From NCBI RefSeq assembly GCF_000718165.1, contig NZ_JOEY01000025.1:86283-150282 (forward strand): a DNA stretch of 64,000 nt, written 5' to 3'. The notes beneath the pieces were generated by a model. The model made no database searches. It saw nothing but the letters and a program-made list of their open reading frames with translations, and had not been told where the DNA came from. Position 1 is the stretch's first letter, and each line of letters begins with the position of its first letter. The translations under genes and the position numbers were made by a program. Below, in pieces: positions 34,766-55,668 of the stretch. The stretch comes from Streptomyces fulvoviolaceus. Its GTDB lineage: Bacteria; Actinomycetota; Actinomycetes; Streptomycetales; Streptomycetaceae.

Positions 34766-34772
34766 AACGTCC

Positions 34773-35942: not shown

Positions 35943-36001
35943 ACCCACTCGACCCTCTCCAACAAGGCTCCGTACTCCGCACCCGAAGGGAAGCCCCCCG
36001 C

Positions 36002-40152: not shown

Positions 40153-40155
40153 CCT

Positions 40156-40192
40156 GGTCCCGAGGGTCCGGTGCCCCCGGATCCTCGGGACC
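40156..40192 (+). terminator. hairpin between the GH35 genes and the LacI gene
   Basis: Arms GGTCCCGAGG (40156-40165) and CCTCGGGACC (40183-40192) form a 10-base stem with an inner CCGG pairing. It starts three bases after the stop. It could partly terminate before the regulator gene. Confidence 0.65.
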
Positions 40193-40282
40193 GTCCCGCC
40201 TATGCTGTGGTCCAGCCGGGCCGTCCTGCCGGCGGGACAGGCCCGCCGTACCCGCCGTATCGATGTCGAGGAAATCGCCACC

Positions 40283-41350
40283 ATGACCCGTAGCGCCGCC
40301 GAAGGAGCCGTCCCGAAGGGGCGCAGCAGGCGGAACTTCGCGGGTTCGCGTCCGGTGATGGACGACGTGGCCCGGCTGGCCGGTGTCTCCAAGCAGACCG
40401 TCTCGCGTGTGCTCAACGAGCATCCGTCCGTGCGTCCCGAGACCCGCGAGGGGGTCCTGGCAGCGATGCGGACGCTCGGCTACCGCCCGAGCCGCAGTGC
40501 CAGGTCGCTGGCCAGCGGCCGGACCCGGATGCTCGGCGTCATCTCCTTCGACGCCGCCCGCTACGGGCCGGCCGCCATCCTCACCGCGATCAACACCGCG
40601 GCCCAGGAGGCGGGCTACCTGGTCAGCTCCATCGCCCTCGACACGGCCGAGCACGACACCGTGGTCGAGGCCGTCGACCGGCTCTCGGCCGAGGGCGCGG
40701 ACGGGGTGATCGCCATCGCCCCGCAGCTGTGGGTGGGCAAGGCGCTCGCGGACACGCACCTCGACACCCCGCTGGTGGTGCTGGAGAACGGCTTCGACAC
40801 CGAGACCGAGCAGGTCACGGGCGATTCGCGGGCCGGCGCCCGCAAGGCCACCGAACACCTGCTGCAGCTCGGTCACTCGACCGTGTGGCACATCGCGGGC
40901 CCGAGCGGCTGGACCTCCGCCGACCACCGGCTGACCAGCTGGCGCTCGACGCTGGAGGCGGCCGGTGCGCAGATCCCCGAGCCACTGGTCGGCGACTGGA
41001 GCGCCGACTCCGGCTACCACCTGGGCCGCCGCCTGGCCCAGCGGGCGGACGTCACCGCGGTGTTCGTCTCCAACGACCAGATGGCCCTCGGCGTCCTGCA
41101 CGCCTTCCACGAAGCGGGCCGCTCCGTCCCCGGCGAGGTCAGCGTCGTCGGCTACGACGACATCCCGGAGGCCGCGCACCTGCTCCCGCCGCTGACCACG
41201 GTCCGCACGGACTTCGCGGAGATCGGCACCCGCTCCCTACGGCTGCTGCTGAACCGCATCGACGGTTCCGTCGAGCCGCCCCGGCCCGAGTCACTCGTCC
41301 CCGTCGACCTGGTCGTCCGGCGCAGCAGCGGCCCGGCGCCCGGCAGCTGA
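40283..41350 (+). CDS. LacI-family regulator of the beta-galactosidase cluster
   Basis: A 355-residue LacI/GalR-family repressor. A 25-residue basic N-terminal tail precedes the helix-turn-helix VMDDVARLAGVSKQTVSRVLN and the hinge RSLASGRTRMLG. The ligand domain has ASVVGYDD-like (VSVVGYDDIPEAA) and AVFVSNDQMALGVL motifs, close to GalR/CebR-type regulators of galactosides and cellobiose. The start ATG 40283 has only a weak GAGGAA site. The predicted operator is the 18-base palindrome before the MFS gene, 5.5 kb upstream. The gene is separated from the GH35 genes by a hairpin. Confidence 0.93.
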   Translation: MTRSAAEGAVPKGRSRRNFAGSRPVMDDVARLAGVSKQTVSRVLNEHPSVRPETREGVLAAMRTLGYRPSRSARSLASGRTRMLGVISFDAARYGPAAILTAINTAAQEAGYLVSSIALDTAEHDTVVEAVDRLSAEGADGVIAIAPQLWVGKALADTHLDTPLVVLENGFDTETEQVTGDSRAGARKATEHLLQLGHSTVWHIAGPSGWTSADHRLTSWRSTLEAAGAQIPEPLVGDWSADSGYHLGRRLAQRADVTAVFVSNDQMALGVLHAFHEAGRSVPGEVSVVGYDDIPEAAHLLPPLTTVRTDFAEIGTRSLRLLLNRIDGSVEPPRPESLVPVDLVVRRSSGPAPGS

Positions 41351-41513: not shown

Positions 41514-42806
41514 TCAGCTCAGGCGGTCCTTGGCCTTGTAGTAGGCGCCGCCGAACGGCAGGAACCAGGCAGTGCCGTTGTAGAAGGGGACGGGGACCTT
41601 GGGGAAGCCGAGGTCGCGCAGGGGGTTGGCCTCCGGCTTGCCGTCCATCATCTCGGCGACCGCGCGGCCCATGTAGGAGGCCATCTGGACGCCGTGGCCG
41701 CAGTACCCCATGGAGTAGTAGAGGCCCTTGGCCCCGTCGGCCTCGCCCGCGTGCGGGAGACGGTCCCAGGAGAAGCCGACCGTGCCGCCCCAGACGTAGT
41801 CGATCCGCACGTCGGACAGCTGCGGGAAGATCTCCGCCATCTCCCGCTTCAGGATGTCTCCGCTCTTGACGTCGGAGGCCGGGTTGGACGGGGCGAAGCG
41901 GGCCCGGCCGCCGAAGGCGAGACGGTTGTCGGGGGTAAGACGGAGGTAGTGGCCGATGTTCTTGGAGTCGACCACCAGGCGGGCCTTGGGGATCAGCTCG
42001 CGGGCACGCTCCTCCCCCAGCGGCTCGGTGACGATGATGAAGCTGCCGACGTTGATCAGCCGCTTGCGGAACCACGGCAGCGCCTTGTCGGTGTAGGCGT
42101 CGGTGGCGGCCATGACCTGCTGGGCGCGAATGGTGCCGTGCAGGGTCTCGACCAGGAATCCGCCGCCGGGGAGCCGGGTGAGGCCGGTGGCCGCGTTGCG
42201 CTCGTGGATCTCGGCGCCGGCTCGCTCGGCGGCGTCCGCGAGGCCGTGGACGTACTTGCCGACGTGCAGGGCGGCGCTCAGCGGATCGAGCAGGGCGCCG
42301 TGGTAGTAGTCCGAGCCGAGTTCCGACTTCAGCTCACCGCGGGAGAGCAGCGTGGTGTGGTGGTCGAAGTTCTCCGCCAGATCGCGCTGGGTGGCCTTCA
42401 TCGCCTCGAAGTGCTGCGGTTTGTAGGCCACTCCCAGCCGGCCGGCGCGATGGAAGTCGCAGTCGATCTGCTCCTTCTGCGTCAGCTCCTCGACGACGTC
42501 GACCGCCTCGCGGAAGGCGTCGTACAACTCACGGGCCCGTTCCTGGCCGTAGCGCTTGCGGGCCTCGCCGACACCGATGGTGATGCCCTGGGTGCACATG
42601 CTGCCGTTGCGGCCGGAGGCGCCCGAGCCGACCTTGTCCTTCTCGACGAGAACGACCCGGGCGCCCTTGCGCGCGGCGTGGTAGGCGGTGGACAGGCCGG
42701 TGAGGCCGCCGCCGACGACCACCACGTCCGCCTCGTCGGGCAGGTCCTTTCCCGAGCGGTCGGGCAGAGCGGGGGCGGTGTCGAGCCAGTAGGGGATCTG
42801 CTTCAT
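41514..42806 (-). CDS. FAD-dependent amine oxidase, gamma-glutamylputrescine oxidase-like
   Basis: A 430-residue FAD oxidoreductase of the DAO family, closest in layout to PuuB (gamma-glutamylputrescine oxidase). The dinucleotide motif is VVVVGGGLTGLSTAYHAARKG, with the SGASGRNGSM flavin loop after it and a C-terminal YSMGYCGHGVQMASYMGRAVAEMM FAD motif. PuuB-type enzymes oxidise a primary amine to an aldehyde, ammonia and peroxide. It is the last gene of the leftward operon, 29 bases after the HAD gene, and ends at the shared terminator. The aldehyde dehydrogenase of the same operon could take its product. Confidence 0.88.
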   Translation of the reverse strand: MKQIPYWLDTAPALPDRSGKDLPDEADVVVVGGGLTGLSTAYHAARKGARVVLVEKDKVGSGASGRNGSMCTQGITIGVGEARKRYGQERARELYDAFREAVDVVEELTQKEQIDCDFHRAGRLGVAYKPQHFEAMKATQRDLAENFDHHTTLLSRGELKSELGSDYYHGALLDPLSAALHVGKYVHGLADAAERAGAEIHERNAATGLTRLPGGGFLVETLHGTIRAQQVMAATDAYTDKALPWFRKRLINVGSFIIVTEPLGEERARELIPKARLVVDSKNIGHYLRLTPDNRLAFGGRARFAPSNPASDVKSGDILKREMAEIFPQLSDVRIDYVWGGTVGFSWDRLPHAGEADGAKGLYYSMGYCGHGVQMASYMGRAVAEMMDGKPEANPLRDLGFPKVPVPFYNGTAWFLPFGGAYYKAKDRLS

Positions 42807-42835
42807 GGCGTGCGTCCTCTGTTTCGTACGAAGGT

Positions 42836-43501
42836 TCAGCAGCCGAGCAGTGCCGGCAGGCCCGAGAGGTCGGGCAGCTCGTCGTAGTGCTGGTAGTCCG
42901 CGCTGCCGGGGCGGCCGTAGCGGTTGATCCACACGCGGCGCTTCAGGCCGAGGTCGCGGGTCGGGATGAGGTCGTACTCCCAGCCCTGGGCGGTGTGGAT
43001 GACCTGGGACGGCTCGACGCCCATCGTCTTGTACGCGTGCTCGAAGGTCTGGCGGTCCGGCTTGTACGCCCCCGCCTGCTCGGCGGTGATGACGTGGTCG
43101 AACTCGACGCCGATGTTCTCGACGTTCCGCGCGATCAGGCGGTCCTCGGTGTTCGAGATGATGGCGATCTCGTACTTGCTCTTCAACGCCCGCAGCGCGT
43201 CCGGGACTTCGGGGAACGGGCCGAAGGTGGGGACGGCTTCCACGAGTGCGTCGCCGTCGGATTCTCGGTACTCCAAGCCGTGCAGGCGCATGGCCATCTC
43301 CAGGCTGGAGTGCAGGACCTCGTGGTAGGGGCGGTACGCCTCCAGGACGGCTTGGAAGCGCATCACGCGGAAGTCGTCGAGGAACTCGTCGACGTCCAGG
43401 TTGTCCAGGTCAAGGCGGTCGGCGAGGACCTTCAGGGTGGTGGGGCCGAGCTGGAAGTCGATCAGGGTGCCGTAGGCGTCGAAGGTGACGATCTCTCGCA
43501 T
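42836..43501 (-). CDS. haloacid dehalogenase type II-like HAD hydrolase
   Basis: A 221-residue HAD-superfamily protein of the L-2-haloacid dehalogenase/HAD type II group. The nucleophile motif is FDAYGTL (Asp8), motif II is ISNTEDR, and the conserved Lys is in GAYKPDRQTF. A WINRYG strand after the GWEYDL loop is typical. True dehalogenases release halide from 2-haloacids; many relatives act on phosphates, so the reaction is open. Two tandem 21-base repeats lie just upstream of its start. It sits inside the amine operon, where a phosphatase or detoxifying role is possible. Confidence 0.85.
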   Translation of the reverse strand: MREIVTFDAYGTLIDFQLGPTTLKVLADRLDLDNLDVDEFLDDFRVMRFQAVLEAYRPYHEVLHSSLEMAMRLHGLEYRESDGDALVEAVPTFGPFPEVPDALRALKSKYEIAIISNTEDRLIARNVENIGVEFDHVITAEQAGAYKPDRQTFEHAYKTMGVEPSQVIHTAQGWEYDLIPTRDLGLKRRVWINRYGRPGSADYQHYDELPDLSGLPALLGC

Positions 43502-43518
43502 GAAGTTCAGCCTCGATT

Positions 43519-43563
43519 CGCGGGTTCTCAGGGGGAGTTTGCGCGGGTTCTCAGGGGGAGTTG
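43519..43563. repeat. tandem 21-base repeat between AKR and HAD genes
   Basis: Two perfect copies of a 21-base unit, with a 23-base period (43519-43539 and 43542-43562). In the mRNA sense the unit is C-rich and contains CTCCCCCTGAGAACCCGCG. A related C-rich triplet lies at 52396-52454 in the same operon. Confidence 0.85.
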
Positions 43564-43569
43564 AGAGCT

Positions 43570-44508
43570 TCAGACGACGCGGTCGCCGGGGGTGACGATC
43601 GCGTCGAGTGCGGCCAGGTCGGCCGGGTCGGGGATCCAGTCGGCCGCCGCCGCGTTGGCGGTGACCTGGTCGGGGGTCATGGCGCCGCAGATGACGGAAC
43701 CGACGGCCGGCAGGGCGGCGAGTCCGCCCACCGCGACCTGGAGGAGGGTCAGGCCTCGCTCTGCGCCGAACGCGGTGAGTGCCTCGACCCGGTCGAGGGC
43801 CTCGTCCGTCAGCCAGCCCTGCCGCCAGGACAGGCGGCTGCCGGCCGGCGGCTGTTCACCACGCCGGTACTTGCCGCTGAGCAGGCCGTTGGCCAGGGGG
43901 TAATAAGGGAGCAGGCCGAGCCCGTGGCGCAGACAGGCGGGGATCAGGTCGACCTCCGCGCCGCGGTCGAGCAGGTGGTAGCGGGCCTGGGTGGACACGA
44001 ACGCCTCGGAGAGCTGCTCGGCCGGGATGTTGGAGCAGCCGACGTACCCGATCTTGCCCTCGTCGACGAGTTCGCGCAGGGCGGCGACCGTCTCCTCCAG
44101 CGGGGTGAGGCCGTCCGGCTCGTGGTACTGGTACAGGTCGATCCGGTCGGTGCCCAGGCGGCGCAGCGACTCCTCGACGGCGTGGCGGATGTAGGGGCGG
44201 GCGCCCCGCGGGCCGTGGCGGTCGGCGTCCGGTCCCATCTCCATGCCGAACTTGGTGGCGAGTACGACCCCGTCCCGCCGGCCTTTGAGTGCCGCGCCCA
44301 GCAGCCGCTCGCCGTCCCCACGCGAGCCGTCGCCCGAGCCGAATCCGCCGTACATGTCGGCGGTGTCGAACAGGGTGATCCCGGCGTCGAGGGCCGCGTG
44401 CACAACTGCCTTGGTGCCCTCCTCGTCGAGGCGGGAGCCGAAGTTGTTGCCGCCGAGGCCGACCACCGAGACGGCCGGCCCCCGCTCGCCGAGCGTGCGG
44501 TACCTCAT
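43570..44508 (-). CDS. aldo/keto reductase
   Basis: A 312-residue NADPH-dependent aldo/keto reductase with an (alpha/beta)8 barrel. The opening MRYRTLGERGPAVSVVGLGGNNFG, the catalytic Asp and Tyr in FDTADMYGGFGSGDG, the Lys in LATKFG and the QYHEPDG strand are visible. The C-terminal NADPH-binding region is AVGSVICGAMTPDQVTAN. It reduces or oxidises an aldehyde or ketone. Its ATG overlaps the stop of the aldehyde dehydrogenase gene, so the two probably handle the same intermediate. Confidence 0.92.
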   Translation of the reverse strand: MRYRTLGERGPAVSVVGLGGNNFGSRLDEEGTKAVVHAALDAGITLFDTADMYGGFGSGDGSRGDGERLLGAALKGRRDGVVLATKFGMEMGPDADRHGPRGARPYIRHAVEESLRRLGTDRIDLYQYHEPDGLTPLEETVAALRELVDEGKIGYVGCSNIPAEQLSEAFVSTQARYHLLDRGAEVDLIPACLRHGLGLLPYYPLANGLLSGKYRRGEQPPAGSRLSWRQGWLTDEALDRVEALTAFGAERGLTLLQVAVGGLAALPAVGSVICGAMTPDQVTANAAAADWIPDPADLAALDAIVTPGDRVV

Positions 44509-45953
44509 GAACCGAACCCGATGCAGACGTTCTTGGTCTGCGTGTAACTCGCCAGCGCCTCAAGGCCCTTCTCCCGGCCCCAGCCGCTGTGCTTGTAGCC
44601 GCCGAAGGGGAGTTCCACGCCCGTGCCGACGCCGGTGGCGTTGACGTAGACCTGGCCGGCCCGGATGCCCTCCGCCATGCGCAGTGCCTGGTTGATGTCG
44701 CGGGTCCAGACGTAGGAGGACAGGCCGTACGGGGTGTCGTTGGCGATCTCCAGCGCCTCCTCGGCGTCGTCGAAGTCGATGACCGTGACGACGGGGCCGA
44801 AGATTTCCTCACGGGCGCAACGGGCCTGGTTCGTCAGGCCGGTGAGGACGGTCGGCTCGATGTAGTAGCCGTCGGCGAGCGCGGGGTCGACGGGGGCGCG
44901 ACCGCCGGTGCGCACGTCGGCGCCCTCCTGCCGGGCCAGGTCCAAGTAGCCCTGCACGCGGTCGCGTTGGCGGGCGGCGACCAGCGGTCCGACGTCGGAG
45001 TCGGCCAGCCCGGGGCCCAGTCGCAGCGAGGCGGCATGGGCGACCAGCTTGTCGAGGAATTCCTCGGCGCCGCGTTGGAGCAGGATCCGGGTGCCGGCCG
45101 AGCAGGTCTGTCCGGCGTTGCCGAAGGCGGAGCCCGCCACGGCGCCCAGTGCCAGGTCGAAGTCGGCGTCGGCGAAGACGACGACGGGTGACTTGCCGCC
45201 CAGCTCCACGACCGCGGGCACCACATTGGCCGCCGCCGCCTGGGCGACCTTGATGCCGGTCGGCACCGAACCGGTGAAGGTGACCTGGTCGATGCCCGGG
45301 TGTCCGGCGAGGGCGGCGCCCGTTTCGCCGTCGCCGGGCAGGACGTTCAACACCCCTGGCGGGAGGCCGCATTCGAGGGCGATACGGCCGATCTCCAGCG
45401 GGGTCAGGGGTGCTTCGGGGGAGGGTTTGAGTACGACAGTGCAGCCCGCTGCCAGTGCCGGCGCCGAGCCCCTCGCGGTGTTCTGGAGCGGGTAGTTGAA
45501 CGGGATGATCTGGCCGGAGACCCCGATCGGCTCGCGGACGGTGTAGTCGAGGAGACCGGCGCCGAGCGGGATGGTGGAGCCGCCGAGCTTGTCGGCCACG
45601 CCCGCGTAGAACTCGAAGTAGCGGGCGGCGGCCTCGACATCGGCCTTGGCCTGGCTGAGCGGCTTGCCGACGTCCCGGCTCTCCAGTCGGGCCAGCCGAT
45701 CGCCGTCGGCGCGGATCGCCGCGGCGATGCGGTTCAGCAGCCGCCCCCGGTCGGCGGCGCGCATCCGCGCCCACTCGGGTGCGGTGAAGGCCGCCCGGGC
45801 CGCCGCCACCGCCTGGTCCACGTCCGCCGCACCGGCCAGCGCCACTTCGGCGAGGGCCGTGCCGTCCGACGGGTCGAGGACGGTGAAGGTGCGGCCGTCG
45901 GCGGCCGGGACCTGCTTTCCGTCAACGAGAAGGAGCCGGGTGTCGTCGCTCAC
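44505..45953 (-). CDS. NAD(P)-dependent aldehyde dehydrogenase
   Basis: A 482-residue aldehyde dehydrogenase, betaine aldehyde/aminobutyraldehyde-like. The catalytic Glu is in ELGGKSPVV and the catalytic Cys in FGNAGQTCSAGTR. The NAD site includes PFNYPLQN and FTGSVPTG. It oxidises an aldehyde to an acid, most likely the product of one of the two amine oxidases or of the aminotransferase in this operon. The GTG at 45953 overlaps the deacylase stop, and its stop overlaps the AKR start. Confidence 0.93.
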   Translation of the reverse strand: MSDDTRLLLVDGKQVPAADGRTFTVLDPSDGTALAEVALAGAADVDQAVAAARAAFTAPEWARMRAADRGRLLNRIAAAIRADGDRLARLESRDVGKPLSQAKADVEAAARYFEFYAGVADKLGGSTIPLGAGLLDYTVREPIGVSGQIIPFNYPLQNTARGSAPALAAGCTVVLKPSPEAPLTPLEIGRIALECGLPPGVLNVLPGDGETGAALAGHPGIDQVTFTGSVPTGIKVAQAAAANVVPAVVELGGKSPVVVFADADFDLALGAVAGSAFGNAGQTCSAGTRILLQRGAEEFLDKLVAHAASLRLGPGLADSDVGPLVAARQRDRVQGYLDLARQEGADVRTGGRAPVDPALADGYYIEPTVLTGLTNQARCAREEIFGPVVTVIDFDDAEEALEIANDTPYGLSSYVWTRDINQALRMAEGIRAGQVYVNATGVGTGVELPFGGYKHSGWGREKGLEALASYTQTKNVCIGFGS

Positions 45954-46903
45954 GGGCGGATCTCCCCCTGCACCTCGCCGAAGATGACGACCTCGTCGCC
46001 GGGGCGGACGGTGCGGATCCGGCGGACCCAGAGGACGATGCCGTCCTGGGGGGCGCGGACCTCCTCCAGCGTGTTGCCGTAGTGGTCGACGATGTGGGCG
46101 ATCAGATCGCCTTCCTTGCAGGTCTCCCCCGGCGCGGCGTGCCCGAGGAAGAAGCCGCCGGCGGCGGAGCGGGCGAAGGTTCCGGAGACCGTCGTGTAGC
46201 TGTCGCGCAGCTTCGCCTCGCCGTCGGTCATGCCGAGTTGGCGCATGATGTTGCGGACGGAGTCGATGTGCAGTTCGACGGTGGCCTCGCGGTAGGTGCC
46301 GCCGCCGGCCTCGATGGTGATGGCGGGCTTGCCCGCCGCGAGGGTGGGGTGGCGGACCGTGCCGCCCCACTTGCCGCCCTTCCAGACCAGCTCGTGACCG
46401 GCGGCGAGGGCGAGGTCCGTGGCCAGTTCCTCGTAGCCGCCCTGGAGGATGGCGAGCGGAGCGATCTCCCCGAAGGTGCCGCCGGTGTGCAGGTCCACCA
46501 GGGCGTCGATGGCCGGGACGACCTGCTCGACGAAGGTGGCGGCCAGGCGCAGGGAGTACGAGCCGTCCGCGTCGCCCGGGAAGATGCGGTTGAGGTTGAG
46601 ATGGTCCAGGCCGCTCGTGCGAGCGGCCGCCTCGAAGGCCGGGGTGTTCATGCAGGGGATGCCGACCAGGGTGCCGCGCAGGCCGGCCGGATCGGTCTCG
46701 GCGAGGACCCGGCGGATGGCTTCCTGGCCGTCGTACTCGTCGCCGTGCACACCCGCGTCGACGCAGAGCACCGGGCCGTCCTCGGTACCGTTGACGACGA
46801 TCACGGGTAGCCCGAGGTCCACGCCGTAGGTGCTGGTGCCGACCGGGATGAGGCCCTGGGCGCGCTCGCCGGGGGCGACGGTCAGCGGACCGATGGAGTA
46901 CAT
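45950..46903 (-). CDS. AspA/AstE-family zinc deacylase, copy 2
   Basis: A 317-residue member of the succinylglutamate desuccinylase/aspartoacylase family, zinc carboxypeptidase fold. The zinc ligands are in DAGVHGDEYDG (H-x-x-E) and VDLHTGG. The C-terminal beta domain (from about residue 225) ends with VVIFGEVQGEIRP. These enzymes remove an acyl group from an N-acyl amino acid or amine; DoeB (acetyl-diaminobutyrate deacetylase) and AstE are relatives. The ATG at 46903 has AAAGGAA upstream. A second, diverged copy is encoded 5.6 kb upstream in the same operon. Both being active-site-intact suggests two different acyl substrates. Confidence 0.88.
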   Translation of the reverse strand: MYSIGPLTVAPGERAQGLIPVGTSTYGVDLGLPVIVVNGTEDGPVLCVDAGVHGDEYDGQEAIRRVLAETDPAGLRGTLVGIPCMNTPAFEAAARTSGLDHLNLNRIFPGDADGSYSLRLAATFVEQVVPAIDALVDLHTGGTFGEIAPLAILQGGYEELATDLALAAGHELVWKGGKWGGTVRHPTLAAGKPAITIEAGGGTYREATVELHIDSVRNIMRQLGMTDGEAKLRDSYTTVSGTFARSAAGGFFLGHAAPGETCKEGDLIAHIVDHYGNTLEEVRAPQDGIVLWVRRIRTVRPGDEVVIFGEVQGEIRP

Positions 46904-46929
46904 GTCGTTCCTTTCGAAAGCGGGGTGTG

Positions 46930-48330
46930 TCACAGGCGGGCGGAGGCCTCGTCGAGCGTCTCCGCGAGGATGTCGGCGATACGGTCGAGGAGGTCGCGGT
47001 CGCTGATCAGCGGGGGCGCGATCTGGACCAGGGGGGCCGCGCGGTTGTAGACGCGGGCCAGGAGGCCGGCCTCGCGCAGCCGGCGTGGGATGAGACCGGC
47101 GACCAGGTCGGCGCGGGCGGTGTCGCTGAAGCCGCCGCCCTCCAGGTCCCCGACGAGCTCGCAGGCGTAGAAGAAGCCCGCGCCCCGGACGTCGCCGACG
47201 ATGGGCAGGTCCGCGAGGGAGGTCATGCGGGCCGCGAGGTGGTCCTGTTGGCCGCGGACGTTCTCCAGGATCCGGTCCCGCTCCATGATCTCCAGGCTGC
47301 GCAGGGCGATCGCGGCGCTCAGCGGGTGGCCGGCGAAGGTGTAGCCGTGGTTGAGGACCGCGCCGGGCTGGTTGATGACCTCGGTGACGCGGCTGCTGAC
47401 GAGGGTGGCGCCCATGGGGGCGTACCCGGCGGTGATTCCCTTGGCGACGGTGACGATGTCCGGGCGGGCGCCGTACCGGTCGCCGCCGAACCACTCCCCC
47501 AGCCGTCCGAAGGCGGTGATCACCTCGTCGGCGACGAGCAGGAACCCGTACCGGTCGGCCAGCGTCCTGAGGCCCGGCCAGTACCCCTCGGGCGGTGTGA
47601 TGCAGCCGCCCCGGTTCTGTACCGGCTCGGCGATCAGCATCGCGATCGTCTCCGGGCCCTCGGCCAGGATCGCGGCCTCCAGTTCGGCGAGCAGCATGGC
47701 GGTGTACGCGTCGTCGTCGAGGAACTCGGGTGCTTCGGGTACGAGGCCGAAGCGGTTGGTGTTGGACACGAACCGCGTCTCGATCGCCCCCGGTCCGTAG
47801 GGCTCGCGCAGTCCGGGGTCGTCGGTGAGGGACAGGGCGCCGATGGTCAGTCCGTGGTAGGCGCCGCGGCGGGAGATCGCCTTGGTGCGGCCCAACTCGC
47901 CGCGCAGGGCGTGGTACTTGCGGGCGATCTTCCAGGCGGTCTCCACGGCTTCGGCGCCGCCGCCGGAGAAGAAGGTGTGCTCGATGTCGACGGGGGCGAT
48001 CCGGGCCAGTCGTTCGGAGAGTTCGATGGCCGTGGGGTGGGCGGAGGCGGACCACAGCGGGCTGAAGCACAGTTCGCGCAGCTGCTTGTCGGCCGCCTCG
48101 GCGAACTCGGGGGCGTAGGAGTAGCCGAGCTGGCAGCAGTACAGACCGGAGAGGCCGTCGATGTAGCGCCGGCCGGTCCCATCCCAGATGTACGGGCCCT
48201 CACCGCGCTGTACGACGAAGAGGTTCTCGCCGTCCTGGCCCAGCGAGCCGTTGGGGGTCATGTTGAGCAGGAGGTGGCGGGCCGCGGTGGCGGACAGCTC
48301 CCCGGTGGGGGTGCGGGTGCTGGTGGTCAT
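46930..48330 (-). CDS. class III PLP aminotransferase
   Basis: A 466-residue class III aminotransferase (omega-amino acid/diamine type). The PLP Lys is in IVTVAKGITAGYAPMGA. Other family marks are FFSGGGAEAVETAWKIARKYH, the AYHGLTIGALSLT strand and LLVADEVITAFGRLGEWF. It moves a terminal amino group to an oxo acid and gives a semialdehyde. The GabT-type protein at 60 kb is only distantly similar. It overlaps the permease start downstream? its own ATG overlaps the stop of the permease gene at 48327 by 4 bases, so it follows the transporter directly in the operon. Confidence 0.93.
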   Translation of the reverse strand: MTTSTRTPTGELSATAARHLLLNMTPNGSLGQDGENLFVVQRGEGPYIWDGTGRRYIDGLSGLYCCQLGYSYAPEFAEAADKQLRELCFSPLWSASAHPTAIELSERLARIAPVDIEHTFFSGGGAEAVETAWKIARKYHALRGELGRTKAISRRGAYHGLTIGALSLTDDPGLREPYGPGAIETRFVSNTNRFGLVPEAPEFLDDDAYTAMLLAELEAAILAEGPETIAMLIAEPVQNRGGCITPPEGYWPGLRTLADRYGFLLVADEVITAFGRLGEWFGGDRYGARPDIVTVAKGITAGYAPMGATLVSSRVTEVINQPGAVLNHGYTFAGHPLSAAIALRSLEIMERDRILENVRGQQDHLAARMTSLADLPIVGDVRGAGFFYACELVGDLEGGGFSDTARADLVAGLIPRRLREAGLLARVYNRAAPLVQIAPPLISDRDLLDRIADILAETLDEASARL

Positions 48331-49196
48331 TTTGCGGTCTCACTTCCGGCGGGGAGGCCCACCGCGGTCTCGGTCGGCAGCAGGCCGTCCTGAGCGCCGG
48401 AGCCGCTGAGTCGACGTACCGCGGCGACCAGGGCGAGTGCCACGACGGCGACGGCGATGAGGATCGCGCTGACGGCGGTCACCGACGGGTCGACGTTGTA
48501 CTGAAGGACGTTGAACACCTCGACGGGCAGGGTCACGGTGTCCACGGAGGACAGGAACTGCGAGATGAAGAACTCGTCGAAACTGGTGATGAAGGCGAAG
48601 ATCCCGGCGGCGACGAGCCCGGGCGCGGCCAGCGGGAAGGTGATGCGCCGGGCGATCGTGAGGCGGCTCGCGCCCATGCTGGCGGCCGCGTCCTCCAGCC
48701 GTTCGTCGATGCCCTTCAGCGTGGCCATGAGGATCATCACGGCGATCGGCGAGGCCAGCACGGTGTGGCCCAGGGCGATGGCGATCGGGCTGCCGAGCAT
48801 CGCGGCCGGCTCGAAGAGCAGGAACAGGCCGAGGGCTACGACGACCTGGGGGATCACCAGCGGGGCGAGGACCAGGCCGTAGACCGCCGAGCGCAGCGGG
48901 AGTTCGCTGCGGACCAGGGCCGTGGCGGCGGTCATGCCGAGAACGAGCGAGAAGACCGTGGTCATGGCCGCCACCAGGGCGCTGAGCGACAGCGCGGCGG
49001 GCCACTTGCTGCCCTCGGCGAACAGCTGCTTGTACCAGCCGAGCGTCCAGGAGTCCGGCGGGAAGGAGCCGAAGGCGTCCTTGCCGAAGGAGGTGACGAC
49101 GATGACGACGATCGGCAGGGCCAGGACCAGCAGGATCAGGATGGCGAGGACGGTCAGGGTGATGCGTCCGGCCAGGGTGGAGCGCAGCTCGATCAT
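48327..49196 (-). CDS. ABC transporter permease, PotC-like
   Basis: A 289-residue permease of the spermidine/putrescine PotC type. Six hydrophobic helices are visible, from LTVLAILILLVLALPIVVIV at the N-terminus. The coupling EAA loop reads DERLEDAAASMGASRLTIARRITFPLAAPGL. The segment FITSFDEFFISQFLS is typical of PotC. The ATG at 49196 overlaps the PotB-like stop by 4 bases. Together with the PotB-like protein it forms the channel of the importer that feeds this operon. Confidence 0.93.
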   Translation of the reverse strand: MIELRSTLAGRITLTVLAILILLVLALPIVVIVVTSFGKDAFGSFPPDSWTLGWYKQLFAEGSKWPAALSLSALVAAMTTVFSLVLGMTAATALVRSELPLRSAVYGLVLAPLVIPQVVVALGLFLLFEPAAMLGSPIAIALGHTVLASPIAVMILMATLKGIDERLEDAAASMGASRLTIARRITFPLAAPGLVAAGIFAFITSFDEFFISQFLSSVDTVTLPVEVFNVLQYNVDPSVTAVSAILIAVAVVALALVAAVRRLSGSGAQDGLLPTETAVGLPAGSETAK

Positions 49197-50125
49197 GACG
49201 CCGCACCTCGCTTCCGGAGGGCCTCGCCCGCCGACCGCCCCAGCCTGAGCAGCACGAGTCCGGCGAAGGTGAGGAGCAGGAGGATGATGCCGAGCGCTGA
49301 GGCGCCGTTCCACTGGTTCTGCTTCATGACCTGCTCGTCGATGAGCGAGGCGACCATGGTCTGTTTCTCGCCGCCCATGAGGGCGGGGGTGAGGTAGTAG
49401 CCGAGGCAGAGGATGAAGGACAGCACACCCGCGTTGACCAGGCCGGGGGCCACCAGCGGGAGGTACACCCGGCGGAAGATGGTCAGCCGTCCGGCGCCCA
49501 TGCCGGCCGCGGCGGCCGGCAGCCGGCGATCGATGCCCTTCATGACCGCGTACAGCAGCAGCACGGTGTACGGCAGCATCACGGCGGTGGTGCCGATGAC
49601 GACGCCGATCTCGTTGTAGAGCAACTGGAAGGGCGCACCCGGGAAGTGGATGTCCGTCAGGACGTTGTTCACCACGCCGTTGTCACCGAGCAGGATGATC
49701 CAGCCGTAGGTGCGCACCAGGGCGCTGATGAAGTGCGGGACGACGACGACCAGCATGGCCAGGCCCGCCCACAGCGGCTTGAGCCGGGAGATCGCGGCAG
49801 CGAGAAGGAAGCCGGTGACCAGGGCGAGCAGGGAGGTCTCGGCGGAGATCCGCAGGGTGGTGAGCAGGATCTCCAGGTTGGCGCCGCGGAAGGCGTCGGC
49901 GTACCAGTGGAGCGTGAAGCCGCCGTCCTCGCCCTCGATGCTCAGCATCAGGGTGCTGAAGATCGGATAGACGAAGAGGATCAACAGGTAGACGACGACG
50001 GGGGCCGCGTTGAACAGGCCGAAGCGGGTGCGGCGGTCGGACCACACCCGGTTCAGCCGCTTCTTGCGGGGCGTCTTGTGGTGCGCGGGTGCGGTGGAGT
50101 CCGATACGGGGGCGAGTACGGCCAC
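49193..50125 (-). CDS. ABC transporter permease, PotB-like
   Basis: A 310-residue permease of the PotB type. A basic, cytoplasmic N-terminal tail (about 35 residues) precedes six hydrophobic helices. The coupling loop is DRRLPAAAAGMGAGRLTIFRRVYLPLVAPGLVNAG. The GTG at 50125 begins five bases after the ATPase stop, and its own stop overlaps the PotC-like start. Length and layout match the family. Confidence 0.93.
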   Translation of the reverse strand: MAVLAPVSDSTAPAHHKTPRKKRLNRVWSDRRTRFGLFNAAPVVVYLLILFVYPIFSTLMLSIEGEDGGFTLHWYADAFRGANLEILLTTLRISAETSLLALVTGFLLAAAISRLKPLWAGLAMLVVVVPHFISALVRTYGWIILLGDNGVVNNVLTDIHFPGAPFQLLYNEIGVVIGTTAVMLPYTVLLLYAVMKGIDRRLPAAAAGMGAGRLTIFRRVYLPLVAPGLVNAGVLSFILCLGYYLTPALMGGEKQTMVASLIDEQVMKQNQWNGASALGIILLLLTFAGLVLLRLGRSAGEALRKRGAAS

Positions 50126-50130
50126 GGCTC

Positions 50131-51264
50131 TCACCCTCCGTGTTCCGGGTCGGCGAAGACGCTGACGTTGCCCGGGTCCGCGGTGAGACCGACGCGCGCG
50201 CCGAGGGCGGGGGCGCGGCCGGCGGGCAGCTCCAGCCGTACGCATCCGGTGTCCGCGCCGCCATCGGAGCGGACGGTGACCCGGACGAGAGTGCCCACGT
50301 AGGTGACCGTTTCCACGGTCCCGGTACAGAACCCGTCGCCGGCGGGGCACAGGACGAGCCGGCCGGGCTGGACCGCGGCGAGGACCTTCGGCGCCGGCGG
50401 GACGGCCTGCGGGCGGGCCTTGAGCAGACCGCCGGTGTCGAGCCGTACGAGGATGTGGTCCGCCGTCTGCTCCGCCACCTGGCCCGGGAGGAAGTTGGCG
50501 GCGCCGAGGAAGTCGGCGACGAACGGGGTGCGGGGGCGCTCGAAGAGCTCCTGCGGGGTGTCGAACTGGTCGATCCGCCCGTCCCGCATGACCGCGATGC
50601 GGTCGGAGAGGACGAGCGCCTCCTCCTGATCGTGCGTCACATAGATGACGGTCAGGCCGAGTTCGCGCTGGATGCGTTTGATCTCGGTCTGGAGCTGGTC
50701 GCGCAGCTTCTTGTCGAGGGCGCCCAGCGGCTCGTCCATGAGGATGACCGGCGGCCGGTAGACAAGGGCGCGGCACAGCGCGACCCGCTGCTGCTGGCCG
50801 CCGGACAGCTCGCGCGGCCGGCGGCGTGCCATGGCCGAGAGGCCGGCCATCTCCAGGGTCTCGCCGACCCTCCGGCGCAGCTCCGCCTTCGGCACACCGC
50901 GCAGTTGCAGCGGGAAGGCGACGTTCTCCCACACCGTCATGTGCGGGAAGAGCAGGTACTGCTGGAAGACGAAGCCCAGGCCGCGCTTCTGCGGGGCGAG
51001 GCGGGTCATGTCGTGGCCGCCGACGACGATGCTGCCGGAGTCGGGCTCGCAGAACCCGGCGATCATCATCAGGGTGGTGGTCTTGCCGGAGCCGGAGGAT
51101 CCCAGGAAGGTGACGAACTCGCCCGCCGCGATCTCCATGGAGACCTCGTCCACGGCCGTGACTCCGCCGTAGGTCTTGCGAAGTCGTGTCACGGACACGG
51201 GTTTTCCGGAGCCGGTCAGGGTCTCGGGCAGGGCGAGCGAAGGCATCACGTCGGCCTCAGGCAT
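50131..51264 (-). CDS. ABC transporter ATP-binding protein, PotA-like
   Basis: A 377-residue importer ATPase of the PotA type. The nucleotide-binding domain has Walker A GSSGSGKTT, the Q-loop FVFQQYLLFPHMTV, signature LSGGQQQRVALCRAL, Walker B VILMDEPLGALD and the switch His in VTHDQEEAL. The C-terminal TOBE domain (from about residue 285) is present. It powers import through the PotB/PotC-like permeases. It overlaps the binding-protein gene by 8 bases. Confidence 0.95.
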   Translation of the reverse strand: MPEADVMPSLALPETLTGSGKPVSVTRLRKTYGGVTAVDEVSMEIAAGEFVTFLGSSGSGKTTTLMMIAGFCEPDSGSIVVGGHDMTRLAPQKRGLGFVFQQYLLFPHMTVWENVAFPLQLRGVPKAELRRRVGETLEMAGLSAMARRRPRELSGGQQQRVALCRALVYRPPVILMDEPLGALDKKLRDQLQTEIKRIQRELGLTVIYVTHDQEEALVLSDRIAVMRDGRIDQFDTPQELFERPRTPFVADFLGAANFLPGQVAEQTADHILVRLDTGGLLKARPQAVPPAPKVLAAVQPGRLVLCPAGDGFCTGTVETVTYVGTLVRVTVRSDGGADTGCVRLELPAGRAPALGARVGLTADPGNVSVFADPEHGG

Positions 51265-52360
51265 GCGTCCACTCCTGCCAGCGCTTGGACACCGCGTCCT
51301 GGTTCTTGATCCACCACTCGACGTCCAGGTCGAAGCCGGACTCCAGGTGCGCGGGCGAACTGCCCAGGTTCGCGGCGGTGGTGGCGGAGAGCTTCTTGTA
51401 GGCGCCAGGCACCGACGGGGCCATCGGGTAGATCTCGGCGTAGGCGGCCTGCACCTCGGGGCGCAGGGCGAAGTCGATCAGCTTGTAGGCGGCGTCGAGG
51501 TTGGCGGCGCCCTTGGGGATGCCGAGGGCGTTGCTCTGCCGGCGGGCACCGTTCCACTGGTAGGCCAGCGGCGAGCCGCCCTTGATCAGGGCGTCGAGGC
51601 GGCCGTGCCAGACGCTGGAGGCGACGACCTCCTTGCGTGCGAGGAGTACGCCGGGCAGGGCACCGGTGTCCCAGAACTTCCGGACGGAACCCTTGATCTC
51701 GCTGAGGACCTTGAAGGCGCGGTCCACGTCGAGCGGATACAGCTTGTCCAGTGCCACGCCGTCGGCCAGCAGGGCGAACTCCAGCTCGGGCAGGTCCGCG
51801 TCGAGGGCCTGCAGGGCGCGGCTGCCCGGGAACGCCTTGGTGTCCCAGAAGTCGGCCCACGAGGCCGGCTTCTTCCCGTCGAAGGCGTCGGTGCGGTACG
51901 CCATCACGCTGGCCCAGTAGTTCTTGCCGACGGCGTTGGAGGTCACCAGGGCCTTGGCGATGCCGGAGTTCTTGAAGTACTTCAGCCGGTCGTAGTCGAG
52001 GTCCTGGGTGGCGCCCTCCTGCTTGAAGAGCACGAAGTCGGCCATCGAGTCGTCGATCACGTCGAACTGCGGGCGGCCCTGCTTGATCTGGGCGAGCATC
52101 TGGGCGTACTCGATGTTCACCACCTTGACCTGGATGCCGGTCTCCTTGGTGAACGGGTCGTAGATCGCCTGCTGGTTGGCGTCGCCGTAGCTGCCGCCGC
52201 TGTTGCGGACGACGAGGGTCTTGGAGTCGCTGCCGTCGCCTCCGCCGACTGACCGGCTGGTGCCGGTGCCGCAGGCGGTGAGCGAGGTGGCGGCGATGCC
52301 GGCGGCGACTCCGCCGACTCCGCGCAGGAACACTCTGCGGTCTATCCGGACATCTGACAC
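51257..52360 (-). CDS. ABC transporter substrate-binding protein, PotD-like Tat lipoprotein
   Basis: A 367-residue binding protein of the PotD/PotF group. The signal peptide combines a twin-arginine motif (RRVFLRG, residues 8-14) with a lipobox LTAC near residue 30, so it is folded before export and then lipid-anchored. The mature part begins LVVRNSGGSYGDANQQAIYDPFTKETGI and contains FDVIDDSMADFVLF. These resemble polyamine-type binding proteins, but the ligand-binding acidic residues were not assigned. It follows the deacylase copy 1 after a 101-base gap that holds three C-rich repeats. Confidence 0.92.
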   Translation of the reverse strand: MSDVRIDRRVFLRGVGGVAAGIAATSLTACGTGTSRSVGGGDGSDSKTLVVRNSGGSYGDANQQAIYDPFTKETGIQVKVVNIEYAQMLAQIKQGRPQFDVIDDSMADFVLFKQEGATQDLDYDRLKYFKNSGIAKALVTSNAVGKNYWASVMAYRTDAFDGKKPASWADFWDTKAFPGSRALQALDADLPELEFALLADGVALDKLYPLDVDRAFKVLSEIKGSVRKFWDTGALPGVLLARKEVVASSVWHGRLDALIKGGSPLAYQWNGARRQSNALGIPKGAANLDAAYKLIDFALRPEVQAAYAEIYPMAPSVPGAYKKLSATTAANLGSSPAHLESGFDLDVEWWIKNQDAVSKRWQEWTHA

Positions 52361-52395
52361 CGGGGGCCTCCTGGGGGTGCGCTGCGTGATGAGGG

Positions 52396-52454
52396 GTGCG
52401 TGCTTTGCAGGGCGGTGCGGGTGCTTTGCAGGGAGTGCGGGTGTTTTCAGGGGG
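52396..52454. repeat. three imperfect ~20-base C-rich tandem repeats before the binding-protein gene
   Basis: On the plus strand the units are GTGCG(GG)TGCTTTGCAGGG-like, at 52396-52414, 52415-52435 and 52436-52454. In the mRNA sense each reads CCCTGCAAAGCACCCGCAC or a variant, rich in C and A and poor in secondary structure. The CCCTG..AA..CCCGC core is shared with the 43.5 kb repeat. Confidence 0.75.
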
Positions 52455-52461
52455 GGTGGGG

Positions 52462-53445
52462 TCAGTGGGCGCTGTCGCCGGGTGCCGGGACGGCGATGGC
52501 GGCGAGTTCGGCGCCGGGAGCGACGGTCAGGCCGCGCATGCCGTAGAAGATCCGTCCGGTGGCCGGGGTGTGGACCTTGTGCTCCTGGCCGTCGGCCGGG
52601 TCGACGACGTGGCCGATGACCTGGCCCTCCGTGACGTCGTCGCCGGCGGTGAACTCCGGGTACCAGAGGCCGGTGGTCTCGGCGGTGACGCCGGCGGCCC
52701 AGACCCAGTCGCGGACGGCCGTCGTGGCCTTGGGCCCGGTGTCGAGGACGCCGAGTCGGCTCAGCACCCCGTACAGACCGGTGACGAGGCGGCGCGCGGT
52801 CTCGGCGTCGCGTTCGCCGAGTTGGCCGGTCTCGACGAGGATCGCCGGGATGCCCTGGCGGGCGGCGGCCGCGTGGCTGTTGCCGCCTTCGGCGTTCAGG
52901 CCGAGGATGACGTCCTCGATGCCGAGGGCGCTCGCCATGTCGGCTGTCTTCGCGTCCAGTTGGGGGTCTCCGGTGAGGCGGTAGCCGACGAAGTCGTCGA
53001 GGACCTCGTCGATGCCGCCCGAGTGGAGGTCGACGTAGGCGTCGGCGCCGTCCAGGAGGTGGGTGAAGAGCCAGGCGGCGAGCCGCTCGGTGGGGCTGCC
53101 GTCGGGGTCGCCGGGGAAGACGCGGTTGATGTTGACGCCGTCGAGCGGGGAGACGCCGAGTCGGCCCTGGTACACGGCCGGGGGGTTGGCGACCGGGCAG
53201 ACGATCACCTGGCCGTGGAGCTCGCCGGGCTCCAGCAGGGCCGCGAGCCGGGTGGCCGCGTCGATGCCGGTGAACTCGCCGCCGTGGACTCCCGCGGTGA
53301 TCAGGACGCGGGGGCCGGGGTGGGCGCCGTTGACCAGGGTCAGCGGGATGTCGACGGTGAGGGTGCCGAGGTCGGCGGGGACGGTGCCGCGGGTCTTGGT
53401 GCCGGGTTCGGCGTGCAGGGTGCCGATGGAGAGAGTGCTGGTCAT
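52462..53445 (-). CDS. AspA/AstE-family zinc deacylase, copy 1
   Basis: A 327-residue succinylglutamate desuccinylase/aspartoacylase-family protein. The zinc site is TAGVHGGEFTG (H-x-x-E) and VDLHSGG, and the C-terminal beta domain contains DVTEGQVIGHVVDPADGQEHKV. It is clearly diverged from copy 2 (45950-46903) while sharing layout. ATG 53445 was chosen with GGAGG ten bases upstream; a GTG nine bases earlier overlaps the oxidase stop but leaves almost no spacing. It probably frees an amine or amino acid from an N-acyl form, before or after import. Confidence 0.87.
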   Translation of the reverse strand: MTSTLSIGTLHAEPGTKTRGTVPADLGTLTVDIPLTLVNGAHPGPRVLITAGVHGGEFTGIDAATRLAALLEPGELHGQVIVCPVANPPAVYQGRLGVSPLDGVNINRVFPGDPDGSPTERLAAWLFTHLLDGADAYVDLHSGGIDEVLDDFVGYRLTGDPQLDAKTADMASALGIEDVILGLNAEGGNSHAAAARQGIPAILVETGQLGERDAETARRLVTGLYGVLSRLGVLDTGPKATTAVRDWVWAAGVTAETTGLWYPEFTAGDDVTEGQVIGHVVDPADGQEHKVHTPATGRIFYGMRGLTVAPGAELAAIAVPAPGDSAH

Positions 53446-53450
53446 CGTGG

Positions 53451-54584
53451 TCACGCCTCCGTCCGGTCGAGGGTGGAGAGGAAGTCGACGGGCCGGGGCG
53501 AGGTGCCGTCCAGCGCGAGGTCGGCGGCGATGTCGCCGAAGGCGGGCGAGAGCTTGAAGCCGTGTCCGGAGAACCCGGCGAGGAGCACGACGTTTTCGGC
53601 GCCGGGCAGGGGTCCGACGAGGGGACGGCTGCTCTCGGTGTAGCCCTCCATGTAGACGGAGAGGCGGACCGGGTCGGGGTTCAGGTCCGGCATGTGGCGG
53701 CCGATCAGCTCGGTGAAGATCTCCAGTTCCTCCGGCTCCACCGTCCGGTCCAGGTGGTTGGGGTCGCCGGCGGGGCGGTGCAGCGCCCGGGACAGCCCGA
53801 GCTTGACGGAGACGCCGTCCGGCGAGGGCAGGCCGTAGCAGTGCGTGGGTGCCGTACGGATGAAGGCGGGGAGCTCCTCGCCGAACCAGGTGTCGGTGGT
53901 GGGCACGTACCAGGCGCTGATGAGGCGGCGGATGTCCACCTCCCACGGCAGGTCCGGCAGCAGGTTGTTCACCCAGGGGCCGACGGTGACCACGGCGGTG
54001 TCGAAGTGCTCGCTCCCGGCGTCCGTGCGGATCTCGACGCCGTTCGCGACGGGCACGATCTCGCGGACCGGGGTGTAGCGGTGGATGACGGCGCCCAGCT
54101 CCTCGGCGCGGCGGGCGGCCGTCTGGATCGTCAACTCGGGCCGGATGAAGCCCGCGTGGCGGTCGAGTACGGCCGCGTCGCCGTCCTCGATCCGGAACTG
54201 CGGGAAGCGCTTGGCGAGGGCGTCGACGTCGAGCACCTCGTGGTCGAGACCGTGTTCCGCTATCGATTCCAGGACGGTCGCCATCTGGTGGTGCTCGGTC
54301 GGCCCCATGAGCAGACAGCCGGTCAGACGGCGCAGCTCGCGGCCGGTCTCCTCCTGGAGCCGCTCCCAGAGGGTGTCGGCGTGCTGGAGGAGCGGGACGT
54401 ACCGGGAGTCCTCGAAGTGAGCGCTGCGGAAGATCCGGGTCTCGCCGCCGGCGGCGCCGCGGTCGTGACCCGGGGCGAAGCGGTCGTAGCCGACGACCTC
54501 GGCTCCGCGGGCGGCCAGGCGCCAGGCGGCCTGGCTGCCCATCGTTCCGACGCCGACGACGGCGACACGCTTGCTGGCAGGCAC
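53451..54584 (-). CDS. FAD-dependent oxidase, sarcosine/N-methyltryptophan oxidase-like
   Basis: A 377-residue monomeric sarcosine oxidase-like flavoprotein (SolA/MSOX group). The FAD motif is VAVVGVGTMGSQAAWRLAARG, with the HDRGAAGGETRIFRSAH flavin loop and a C-terminal LAGFSGHGFKLSPAFGDIAADL motif. The Cys that covalently holds FAD in MSOX (C-M-Y-T) appears as Ser in LSVYMEG here, so FAD is probably not covalently bound by that link. It would oxidise an N-methyl or secondary amine. GTG 54584 has AAAGGAA five bases upstream. It is the first gene of the thirteen-kilobase operon, divergent from the IclR gene. Confidence 0.88.
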   Translation of the reverse strand: MPASKRVAVVGVGTMGSQAAWRLAARGAEVVGYDRFAPGHDRGAAGGETRIFRSAHFEDSRYVPLLQHADTLWERLQEETGRELRRLTGCLLMGPTEHHQMATVLESIAEHGLDHEVLDVDALAKRFPQFRIEDGDAAVLDRHAGFIRPELTIQTAARRAEELGAVIHRYTPVREIVPVANGVEIRTDAGSEHFDTAVVTVGPWVNNLLPDLPWEVDIRRLISAWYVPTTDTWFGEELPAFIRTAPTHCYGLPSPDGVSVKLGLSRALHRPAGDPNHLDRTVEPEELEIFTELIGRHMPDLNPDPVRLSVYMEGYTESSRPLVGPLPGAENVVLLAGFSGHGFKLSPAFGDIAADLALDGTSPRPVDFLSTLDRTEA

Positions 54585-54741
54585 AAGGGTTCCTTTCGTC
54601 TCCCGGGCCGTGGATGCTGGGCGCCCGGTGTGCGGATTGTGTGATTCCGGATGGAGGGGGCGGCCAAGGGCCGCCGACTGGGGCTTTCCGGAGGGAGGGG
54701 CTTCGGACCGCCCCTTCGCGGCCACCCCTTCAACTTCCTCC

Positions 54742-54778
54742 GTGCCACATTGTGGAACGCTATGCTAGAATCTGGCAC
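54742..54778. promoter_or_regulatory. inverted repeats between the amine operon and its IclR gene
   Basis: CCACATTGTGG (54745-54755) is a palindrome with a one-base centre. It lies inside a wider pair, GTGCCA (54742-54747) and TGGCAC (54773-54778). A plus-strand -10 candidate TAGAAT (54766-54771) lies within. The site resembles short IclR-type operators and probably controls both directions. Confidence 0.5.
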
Positions 54779-54852
54779 GAGAATGGCAGTGGCGCCGAAG
54801 GGGAGTCAAGGGGTGCGCGCATGGAGTTCGCAGAGTTAACGGGGGAAACCAG

Positions 54853-55605: not shown

Positions 55606-55668
55606 ATGATTTGCGGGCGCGGGGAGTCTGTGGCTGGTCGCTCAGTTCCCCGCGCCCCTGGGGTGGTC
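55606..55668. repeat. dispersed palindromic repeat, copy 4
   Basis: The gap between the convergent IclR and gabD genes has GGGCGCGGGGA, GTGGCTGGTCGCTCAGTTCC and CCGCGCCCCTGGGG. The order and orientation match copy 2. The GC-rich arms could act as a shared terminator. Confidence 0.75.

Follow-up and report, generated by a model that had tools for sequence, protein, structure and literature searches.

Among the closest described parallels to the locus reported here is the assimilation of azetidine-2-carboxylate, represented by the azetidine-2-carboxylate (AC) hydrolase of Pseudomonas A2C and by AzhA of Aspergillus nidulans. In A. nidulans, the HAD hydrolase AzhA and a gamma-aminobutyrate (GABA) transaminase assimilate this compound as a nitrogen source, one HAD enzyme acting with general GABA genes on the free compound (PMC8016842). 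A semialdehyde dehydrogenase is also expected in such a pathway. The 64,000-nucleotide stretch of Streptomyces fulvoviolaceus contig NZ_JOEY01000025.1 analyzed here (the window, whose right end is the contig end, in a genome of 11.6 Mb) contains a twelve-gene operon, entirely leftward at 41514–54584, whose locus likewise combines a HAD enzyme with a GABA-type transaminase but adds a dedicated ATP-binding cassette (ABC) importer, two flavin adenine dinucleotide (FAD) oxidases (DAO1 and DAO2), two deacylases (AstE1 and AstE2), and an aldehyde dehydrogenase. Three other described systems resemble the operon in part. Ectoine catabolism (DoeA-DoeB-DoeD-DoeC) shares DoeB-like deacylases, a class III aminotransferase, an aldehyde dehydrogenase, and aspartate as the likely product, whereas the FAD oxidases and the HAD enzyme are additions of the operon. 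The gamma-glutamyl-putrescine (Puu) pathway shares a PuuB-like oxidase, an aldehyde dehydrogenase, and an aminotransferase, but no glutamyl ligase is present among the genes identified (the rest of the genome was not searched for the PuuA type), and the HAD enzyme, the deacylases, and a D-2-hydroxyacid dehydrogenase are added. Opine, GABA, and polyamine importers (mannopine, agropine, and GABA binders, PotABCD) share the binding-protein and permease families.

Nicotianamine and the mugineic acids are composed of azetidine-2-carboxylate and four-carbon (C4) amino- or hydroxy-acid units, and the gene set reads as fitting their breakdown with little left over. It is a serious but tentative possibility that the operon, together with an adjacent three-gene unit, imports and degrades an azetidine-2-carboxylate-containing aminocarboxylate of the nicotianamine/mugineic acid (phytosiderophore) type or a close derivative; we infer both the substrate and each reaction from the gene content. 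The broader statement, that the system channels a C4 amino-aldehyde into aspartate and a D-hydroxy C4 acid into malate/oxaloacetate, is probably correct. More speculatively, this operon and the HAD-DAO2 clusters of other actinobacteria and of proteobacteria may be the bacterial genes for nicotianamine/phytosiderophore catabolism, with the HAD enzyme opening the azetidine ring, the carbon flowing to fumarate and D-malate, and linked copper/nickel genes handling metal release in some hosts. The gene set, its conservation, the enzyme families, and the repeated co-occurrence of HAD with DAO2 are established here. One source reports that deoxymugineic acid is synthesized from azetidine-2-carboxylate, that mugineic acids are readily degraded by soil microbes with the azetidine ring thought to be the weak point, and that this fast degradation of phytosiderophores in soil prompted a stabler synthetic analogue in which proline replaces azetidine (PMC7946895). 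Among the literature matches listed, none dealt with bacterial genes that break down nicotianamine or phytosiderophores, or with this gene set, subscription journals being mostly outside coverage. If the proposal is true, the gene set would provide both a marker for phytosiderophore breakdown in soils and a testable pathway; if the substrate is another, the module of HAD enzyme, oxidase, transaminase, and semialdehyde dehydrogenase would still be a widespread catabolic route with concrete candidates.

In the proposed pathway, the ABC importer would take up the chelator, DAO1 would oxidize a saccharopine-like secondary amine and DAO2 a second C-N bond, and the products would be aspartate semialdehyde (malate semialdehyde if the chelator is a mugineic acid) and L-azetidine-2-carboxylate. 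The aldehyde dehydrogenase could then convert aspartate semialdehyde to aspartate, which aspartase would carry to fumarate. Type II HADs invert the configuration at the 2-carbon, so L-azetidine would yield a D-2-hydroxy acid; ring opening with inversion is predicted to give D-4-amino-2-hydroxybutyrate (D-hydroxy-GABA). The operon aminotransferase (AT3) or GabT of the second unit would turn this compound into D-malate semialdehyde, from which a semialdehyde dehydrogenase may form D-malate and an FAD/Fe-S dehydrogenase oxaloacetate. The members understood least are AstE1 and AstE2, whose role is the weakest part of the mechanism; our guess is that they strip an N-acyl group from acyl-protected C4 intermediates such as N-acetyl-aspartate or N-acetyl-diaminobutyrate. 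The kinship of the AstE proteins with DoeB, a DoeB2-related M20 enzyme in a Novosphingobium cluster, and the frequent GNAT genes of the proteobacterial clusters may point to such an intermediate.

The HAD gene (42836–43501, minus strand), whose product is the proposed azetidine-ring opener, is among the best-conserved operon members, with operon copies 81–94% identical. Among relatives of solved structure, L-azetidine-2-carboxylate hydrolase scores best (94 bits), followed by 8hp5, an (S)-2-haloacid dehalogenase according to its depositors (85 bits), and the classical L-2-haloacid dehalogenases, e.g., 1zrm (58 bits). The nucleophile Asp8 together with Thr12, Asn117, Lys147, His169, and Asp177 is invariant in 20 HADs and falls in the same columns in 3smv, so that the window HAD shows the fold, the nucleophilic Asp, and the remaining conserved HAD motifs expected of an azetidine hydrolase. 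The automatic name, haloacid dehalogenase type II, derives support from TIGR01428 (142.6 bits, cut-off 125.4) and from 8hp5, and would point to dehalogenation of a halogenated amino acid or a haloacid. We regard this as extremely unlikely, as the azetidine hydrolase outscores the classical dehalogenases and no halogen-related partner gene was noticed. In the HAD tree, which carries a long-branch warning and whose split next to the root reaches only 78/58, the window HAD shares a clade (97/97) with those of loci L107 and L108, and the HADs beside DAO2 outside the Streptomyces type form another single clade (100/98). A single HAD lineage throughout is accordingly rejected or at least weakened: the Streptomyces-type HAD and the DAO2-paired HAD elsewhere are separate clades, and it is the pathway logic, not the HAD lineage, that is common to the clusters. 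Locus L107 (Rhodococcus JS3073) holds DAO1, a Pot-type importer, the HAD enzyme, D-2-hydroxyacid dehydrogenases of two types, a succinate-semialdehyde dehydrogenase (SSADH), GabT, and AT3. Separately, contig 43 of the S. fulvoviolaceus genome carries a second HAD gene, 56% identical (L108:4786-13725), whose neighbors encode an MFS carrier, a DAO oxidase, a D-2-hydroxyacid dehydrogenase, a PucR-like protein, and an SSADH sharing 79% identity with that of the window; this may be a stand-alone azetidine route.

A second leftward unit of three genes (55667–61238) lies just across the IclR gene from the operon. It comprises an SSADH-like enzyme (55667–57106; TIGR01780 575.7 bits, under the cut-off of 646), an FAD/Fe-S D-2-hydroxyacid dehydrogenase of the YdiJ/GlcD-GlcF-like type (57103–59940, start approximate), and a GabT-like class III aminotransferase (59970–61238), all on the minus strand with junctions of +29 (given the approximate start of the dehydrogenase) and −4, and a PucR-family regulator (61361–63142, plus strand) is divergent from it. 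The unit stands beside the operon in genomes G013, G007, G009, and G049, the last three of which also have the PucR gene, but is missing from the examined stretch of G014. The window GabT is 64–66% identical to the aminotransferases of six HAD-linked actinobacterial clusters (L107, L120, L126, L128, L132, and L134), whose SSADH proteins are 65–71% identical to that of the window, and the D-2-hydroxyacid dehydrogenase is 57–59% identical to those of L107 and L120. These matches place the second unit in the same kind of cluster; the combination of GabT, SSADH, and D-2-hydroxyacid dehydrogenase that marks the HAD-DAO2 clusters is thus found near the operon, with orthologue-like genes in L107 and L120. 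In G007, just beyond PucR, there are also a second HAD (36%) and DAO2 (51%), a duplicate of the Pot-type importer (57–76%), and another DAO2 (88%). An aspartase gene directly follows the operon in 30 of the 65 loci that extend at least 9 kb to the right, and the copy in L012 reaches 695 bits against TIGR00839 (cut-off 681). Taken together, the kinship of the HAD enzyme, the unit of GabT, D-2-hydroxyacid dehydrogenase, and semialdehyde dehydrogenase, and the aspartase point to a compound composed of C4 amino acids, not to an N-methyl one, as the substrate.

Comparisons with other bacteria provide evidence for a recurring HAD-DAO2 association. DAO2 (41514–42806, minus strand), an AmaA/PuuB-like FAD oxidase, groups with the DAO2s of HAD-linked clusters: 29 of the 35 tree rows fall together, uniting the window protein with those from other actinobacteria and from proteobacteria, with support values of 82/89 that lie under the 95/80 mark. 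Searches with DAO2 at E≤1e-110 in two actinobacterial families were positive in 5 of 168 and 5 of 351 genomes and yielded 11 places, of which those in R. opacus B4 and G901 are near-identical. A HAD gene adjoins DAO2 at all 11 places, and the surrounding stretches contain a class III aminotransferase (10/11), a semialdehyde dehydrogenase 53–71% identical to that of the window (9/11), a DAO1-like oxidase of 32–43% identity (9/11), and a tartrate dehydrogenase (6/11). Twenty control stretches, each 20 kb long and drawn from these genomes, were free of HAD, DAO1, DAO2, tartrate dehydrogenase, and aspartase at the thresholds used, although they did contain single instances of a weak DAO match (25%), a P-type ATPase, and an Opp-type importer, besides a few matches to aldehyde dehydrogenase, aminotransferase, and IclR; the metal-gene queries of this control were drawn from the clusters themselves and hence are not unbiased. 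The R. opacus and G198 clusters include a CDF transporter and an ArsR-type regulator. The G198 region (L109, L110, and L130) spans ~35 kb and contains three divergent HADs and a weaker fourth, an Opp importer, an M20 enzyme, tartrate dehydrogenase, ArsR, CDF, and a P-type ATPase.

The association extends to plasmids, for which 13 mostly annotated DAO2-selected records of different genera were taken from 50 of 366 matches. A HAD gene lies within 10–12 kb of DAO2 in 10 of the 13 and directly adjoins it in six. The same records contain a tartrate dehydrogenase (seven), a GhrA-type D-2-hydroxyacid dehydrogenase (six, one at the very edge), an SSADH (six), a class III aminotransferase (five), a GNAT gene (10), and a Dpp/Opp-looking ABC importer (11, peptide-type by annotation in four and by our own judgment in the rest). 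Selection by HAD instead gave the DAO2 pair in two of seven plasmid records (R. binae and R. opacus B4) and no DAO2 nearby in the other five (Roseomonas, A. vitis, A. tumefaciens, P. syringae, and Rhodococcus JS3073). Three unrelated types of D-2-hydroxy-acid enzyme recur with HAD, namely tartrate/D-malate dehydrogenase, GhrA/2-Hacid_dh, and the FAD/Fe-S type. Four plasmid stretches away from the cluster were devoid of HAD type II, tartrate dehydrogenase, SSADH, and copper genes; GNATs occurred in two of them, a class III aminotransferase in one, siderophore-type biosynthesis in one, and two plain TonB receptors in one, so GNAT, aminotransferase, and TonB genes are weak markers. Several features hint at a chelate: copper, heavy-metal, or siderophore-uptake genes are present in 5 of the 13 records and in the R. 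opacus and G198 clusters, the binding proteins from three clusters match the nickel Opp5A/NikA models best (below cut-off), and a Sphingobium TonB protein scores as a siderophore receptor over the cut-off. Beside DAO2, annotated genes for an alanine racemase (L114, L117, and L165), the ornithine cyclodeaminase family (L114, L115, L117, and L165), and a threonine/serine dehydratase (L115) are also seen; with the BhcR-like IclR protein, these are reminiscent of the beta-hydroxyaspartate cycle and might act on hydroxylated mugineic acids.

The operon itself is a conserved unit. An earlier note, prepared from the letters of the window, had described a twelve-gene leftward operon; all twelve genes are present, every open reading frame is real, and the Pfam and NCBIfam assignments agree with those it gave. 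Its description of tiny gaps or 4–8 base overlaps holds for most junctions, which from 5’ to 3’ are +5, +101, −8, −4, −4, −4, +26, −4, −4, +68, and +29 bases, but not for the gaps of +101 and +68. None of the terminator-like sites falls inside an operon gap, and the four found compare with 3.7 expected by chance. Relatives were collected with AstE2 as at least 80 loci from named genomes, of which 49 reach at least 9 kb on both sides of AstE2. The complete set of twelve is present in 41 of these 49 spanning loci, with full copies in Streptomyces, Kribbella, Saccharothrix, Lentzea, and Nonomuraea, so that the refuting condition set by the earlier note, absence of conservation as a unit, does not apply. 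The spread is patchy: AstE2 matches at E≤1e-40 occur in 8 of the 120 genomes searched, the S. fulvoviolaceus genome included, and that in G112 is distant (34%). The eight incomplete spanning loci are L048, L053, L062, L069, L083, L089, L091, and L092. The Lentzea loci L089, L091, and L092 are without the Pot-type importer and the aminotransferase, with other transport genes in L089 (an SBP_bac_3 amino-acid-type binding protein and permease) and L091 (an ABC ATPase); L062 is without DAO1 and AstE1; and only DAO1, AstE1, and AstE2 of the twelve remain in L069 and L083. The short form in L069 (6263–13697) consists of tartrate dehydrogenase, DAO1, AstE1, AstE2, a DUF1537 four-carbon-acid kinase, and an Asp/Glu racemase-family gene, with no importer and no HAD, and L083 (S. 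tuirus) has DAO1, AstE1, AstE2, and the dehydrogenase in common with it.

The earlier note's general picture of an import-and-catabolize operon, with two AspA/AstE zinc hydrolases, amine oxidation, transamination, and aldehyde oxidation, is borne out, but the oxidative demethylation it proposed is not supported. DAO1 (53451–54584, minus strand; PF01266) is an MSOX/MTOX-type FAD amine oxidase that scores 311.6 bits against NF008425 (N-methyltryptophan oxidase, cut-off 257) and 228.6 bits against TIGR01377, under the cut-off of 479.65. In the MSOX/N-methyltryptophan oxidase family a Cys carries the covalent flavin, and in DAO1 Tyr311 is aligned with the Cys of 7exs. N-demethylation by DAO1 is weakened by this missing Cys, and no one-carbon genes were noticed among the annotated neighbors. 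The substrate envisaged in that note was a diamine or amino acid, N-acylated and N-alkylated, that would be broken down by deacylation, demethylation, transamination, and aldehyde oxidation, with no azetidine link. In favor of such a substrate are the two deacylases with intact catalytic residues, the NF008425 score, the class III aminotransferase AT3 of the operon (46930–48330, minus strand; Lys297 is presumably catalytic, judging from the motif), the aldehyde dehydrogenase of the betaine/aminobutyraldehyde type (44505–45953, minus strand), and an importer of the polyamine/GABA/opine type. We nevertheless consider it unlikely: it leaves the HAD enzyme, the D-2-hydroxyacid dehydrogenase, and the aspartase without a role, DAO1 is without the flavin-bearing Cys, and neither annotation nor tblastn revealed an AstE gene in the HAD-DAO2 clusters elsewhere.

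The deacylases themselves raise a further alternative. AstE1 (52462–53445) and AstE2 (45950–46903), both on the minus strand, are AspA/AstE-type M14 zinc deacylases (PF24827) that keep the HxxE...H ligands and a Glu. DoeB is the sole NCBIfam match of both, which together with the aspartase as an end point and the DoeB2-related M20 enzyme of the Novosphingobium cluster would suit a route through N-acetyl-2,4-diaminobutyrate or another ectoine-derived compound, in which DoeB-like deacetylation, DoeD-like transamination, and DoeC-like oxidation would lead to aspartate and aspartase. However, the DoeB scores of 97.5 (AstE1) and 112.5 bits (AstE2) fall short of the equivalog cut-off of 402.7, and for the M20 enzyme DoeB2 is the third-best model (336.5 bits, cut-off 550), behind a general amidohydrolase model that is over its cut-off. 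The two oxidases and the HAD enzyme would also go unexplained, and the ectoine hydrolase DoeA scores over the TIGR02993 cut-off in none of six operon-bearing genomes. Ectoine catabolism is therefore rejected or at least weakened, and an ectoine-type substrate appears quite improbable. AstE homologues occur in other settings as well: plasmid records selected by AstE show contexts of peptide transport or unrelated ones, and a 16 kb stretch of a Cytobacillus oceanisediminis plasmid (L096:20001-35974) carries five AspA/AstE-family genes among peptide-type ABC importer genes.

The importer consists of a solute-binding protein (51257–52360), a PotA-like ATPase (50131–51264), and PotB-like (49193–50134) and PotC-like (48327–49196) permeases, all on the minus strand. 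It misses the PotA, PotB, PotC, and PotD cut-offs (PotD, 68.4 bits versus 582), and the relatives of its binding protein, which belongs to the PotD/GABA/mannopine/agropine-binder family, include mannopine and agropine binders and GABA binders. These relatives, and the kinship of DAO1 to MSOX, could indicate catabolism of opines or Amadori compounds (mannopine/agropine-like, or fructosyl amino acids), in which DAO1 would be a fructosyl-amino-acid or opine oxidase and the aldo/keto reductase (43570–44508, minus strand) and HAD enzyme would act on the sugar part. The semialdehyde dehydrogenase, GabT, aspartase, and tartrate dehydrogenase in linked clusters point instead to C4 acids, not sugars, and the aldo/keto reductase, dispensable in some relatives, is absent in L091; a sugar-derived substrate seems to us very unlikely.

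Several observations weigh against breakdown of a nicotianamine-type chelator as well. First, the window HAD is 31% identical to the azetidine hydrolase (61/195) and in the tree lies outside both the azetidine hydrolase branch and the clade of DAO2-adjacent HADs elsewhere; this separate branch and the low identity speak against filing it as an azetidine-2-carboxylate hydrolase orthologue. Second, AstE1 and AstE2 have no clear job; nicotianamine has no amide, and hence offers them nothing obvious. Third, the binding-protein family suits GABA, opines, or polyamines equally. Fourth, the locus in the window itself is without aspartase and tartrate dehydrogenase, whose homologues are elsewhere in the genome (the best aspartase copy is on another contig, at 90% identity). 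Fifth, two Streptomyces loci, L048 and L053, are without AT3 and DAO2, and the aminotransferases of L106, L110, L122, and L135 belong to another subfamily, 31–33% identical to GabT. Finally, no metal genes were identified beside the Streptomyces-type operon, where several recurring neighbor families are unannotated.

The HAD enzyme’s role, the second unit, and the aspartase were not taken up in the earlier note, nor was the conserved divergent operator region. This region of 268 bases (54585–54852) separates DAO1 from the IclR-family gene (54853–55605, plus strand) and contains a TTGACT box at 54804–54809 on the minus strand and an inverted repeat, GTGCCA...TGGCAC, at 54740–54779. Comparison of shared 9-letter words, made without alignment, finds those of the two repeat halves in 46 and 38 of 53 DAO1-IclR regions (window included) and a word containing the TTGACT box in 43. 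The divergent IclR gene is present in 45 of the 49 spanning loci. The nearest NCBIfam model of its product is BhcR, at 162.9 bits under the equivalog cut-off of 350. BhcR senses glyoxylate, and it is plausible from this sequence kinship that the IclR protein senses an acid. Left of the operon, a large open reading frame with GH35 beta-galactosidase domains and a LacI-family gene (34628–37762 and 39785–41350) are apparently unrelated to it.

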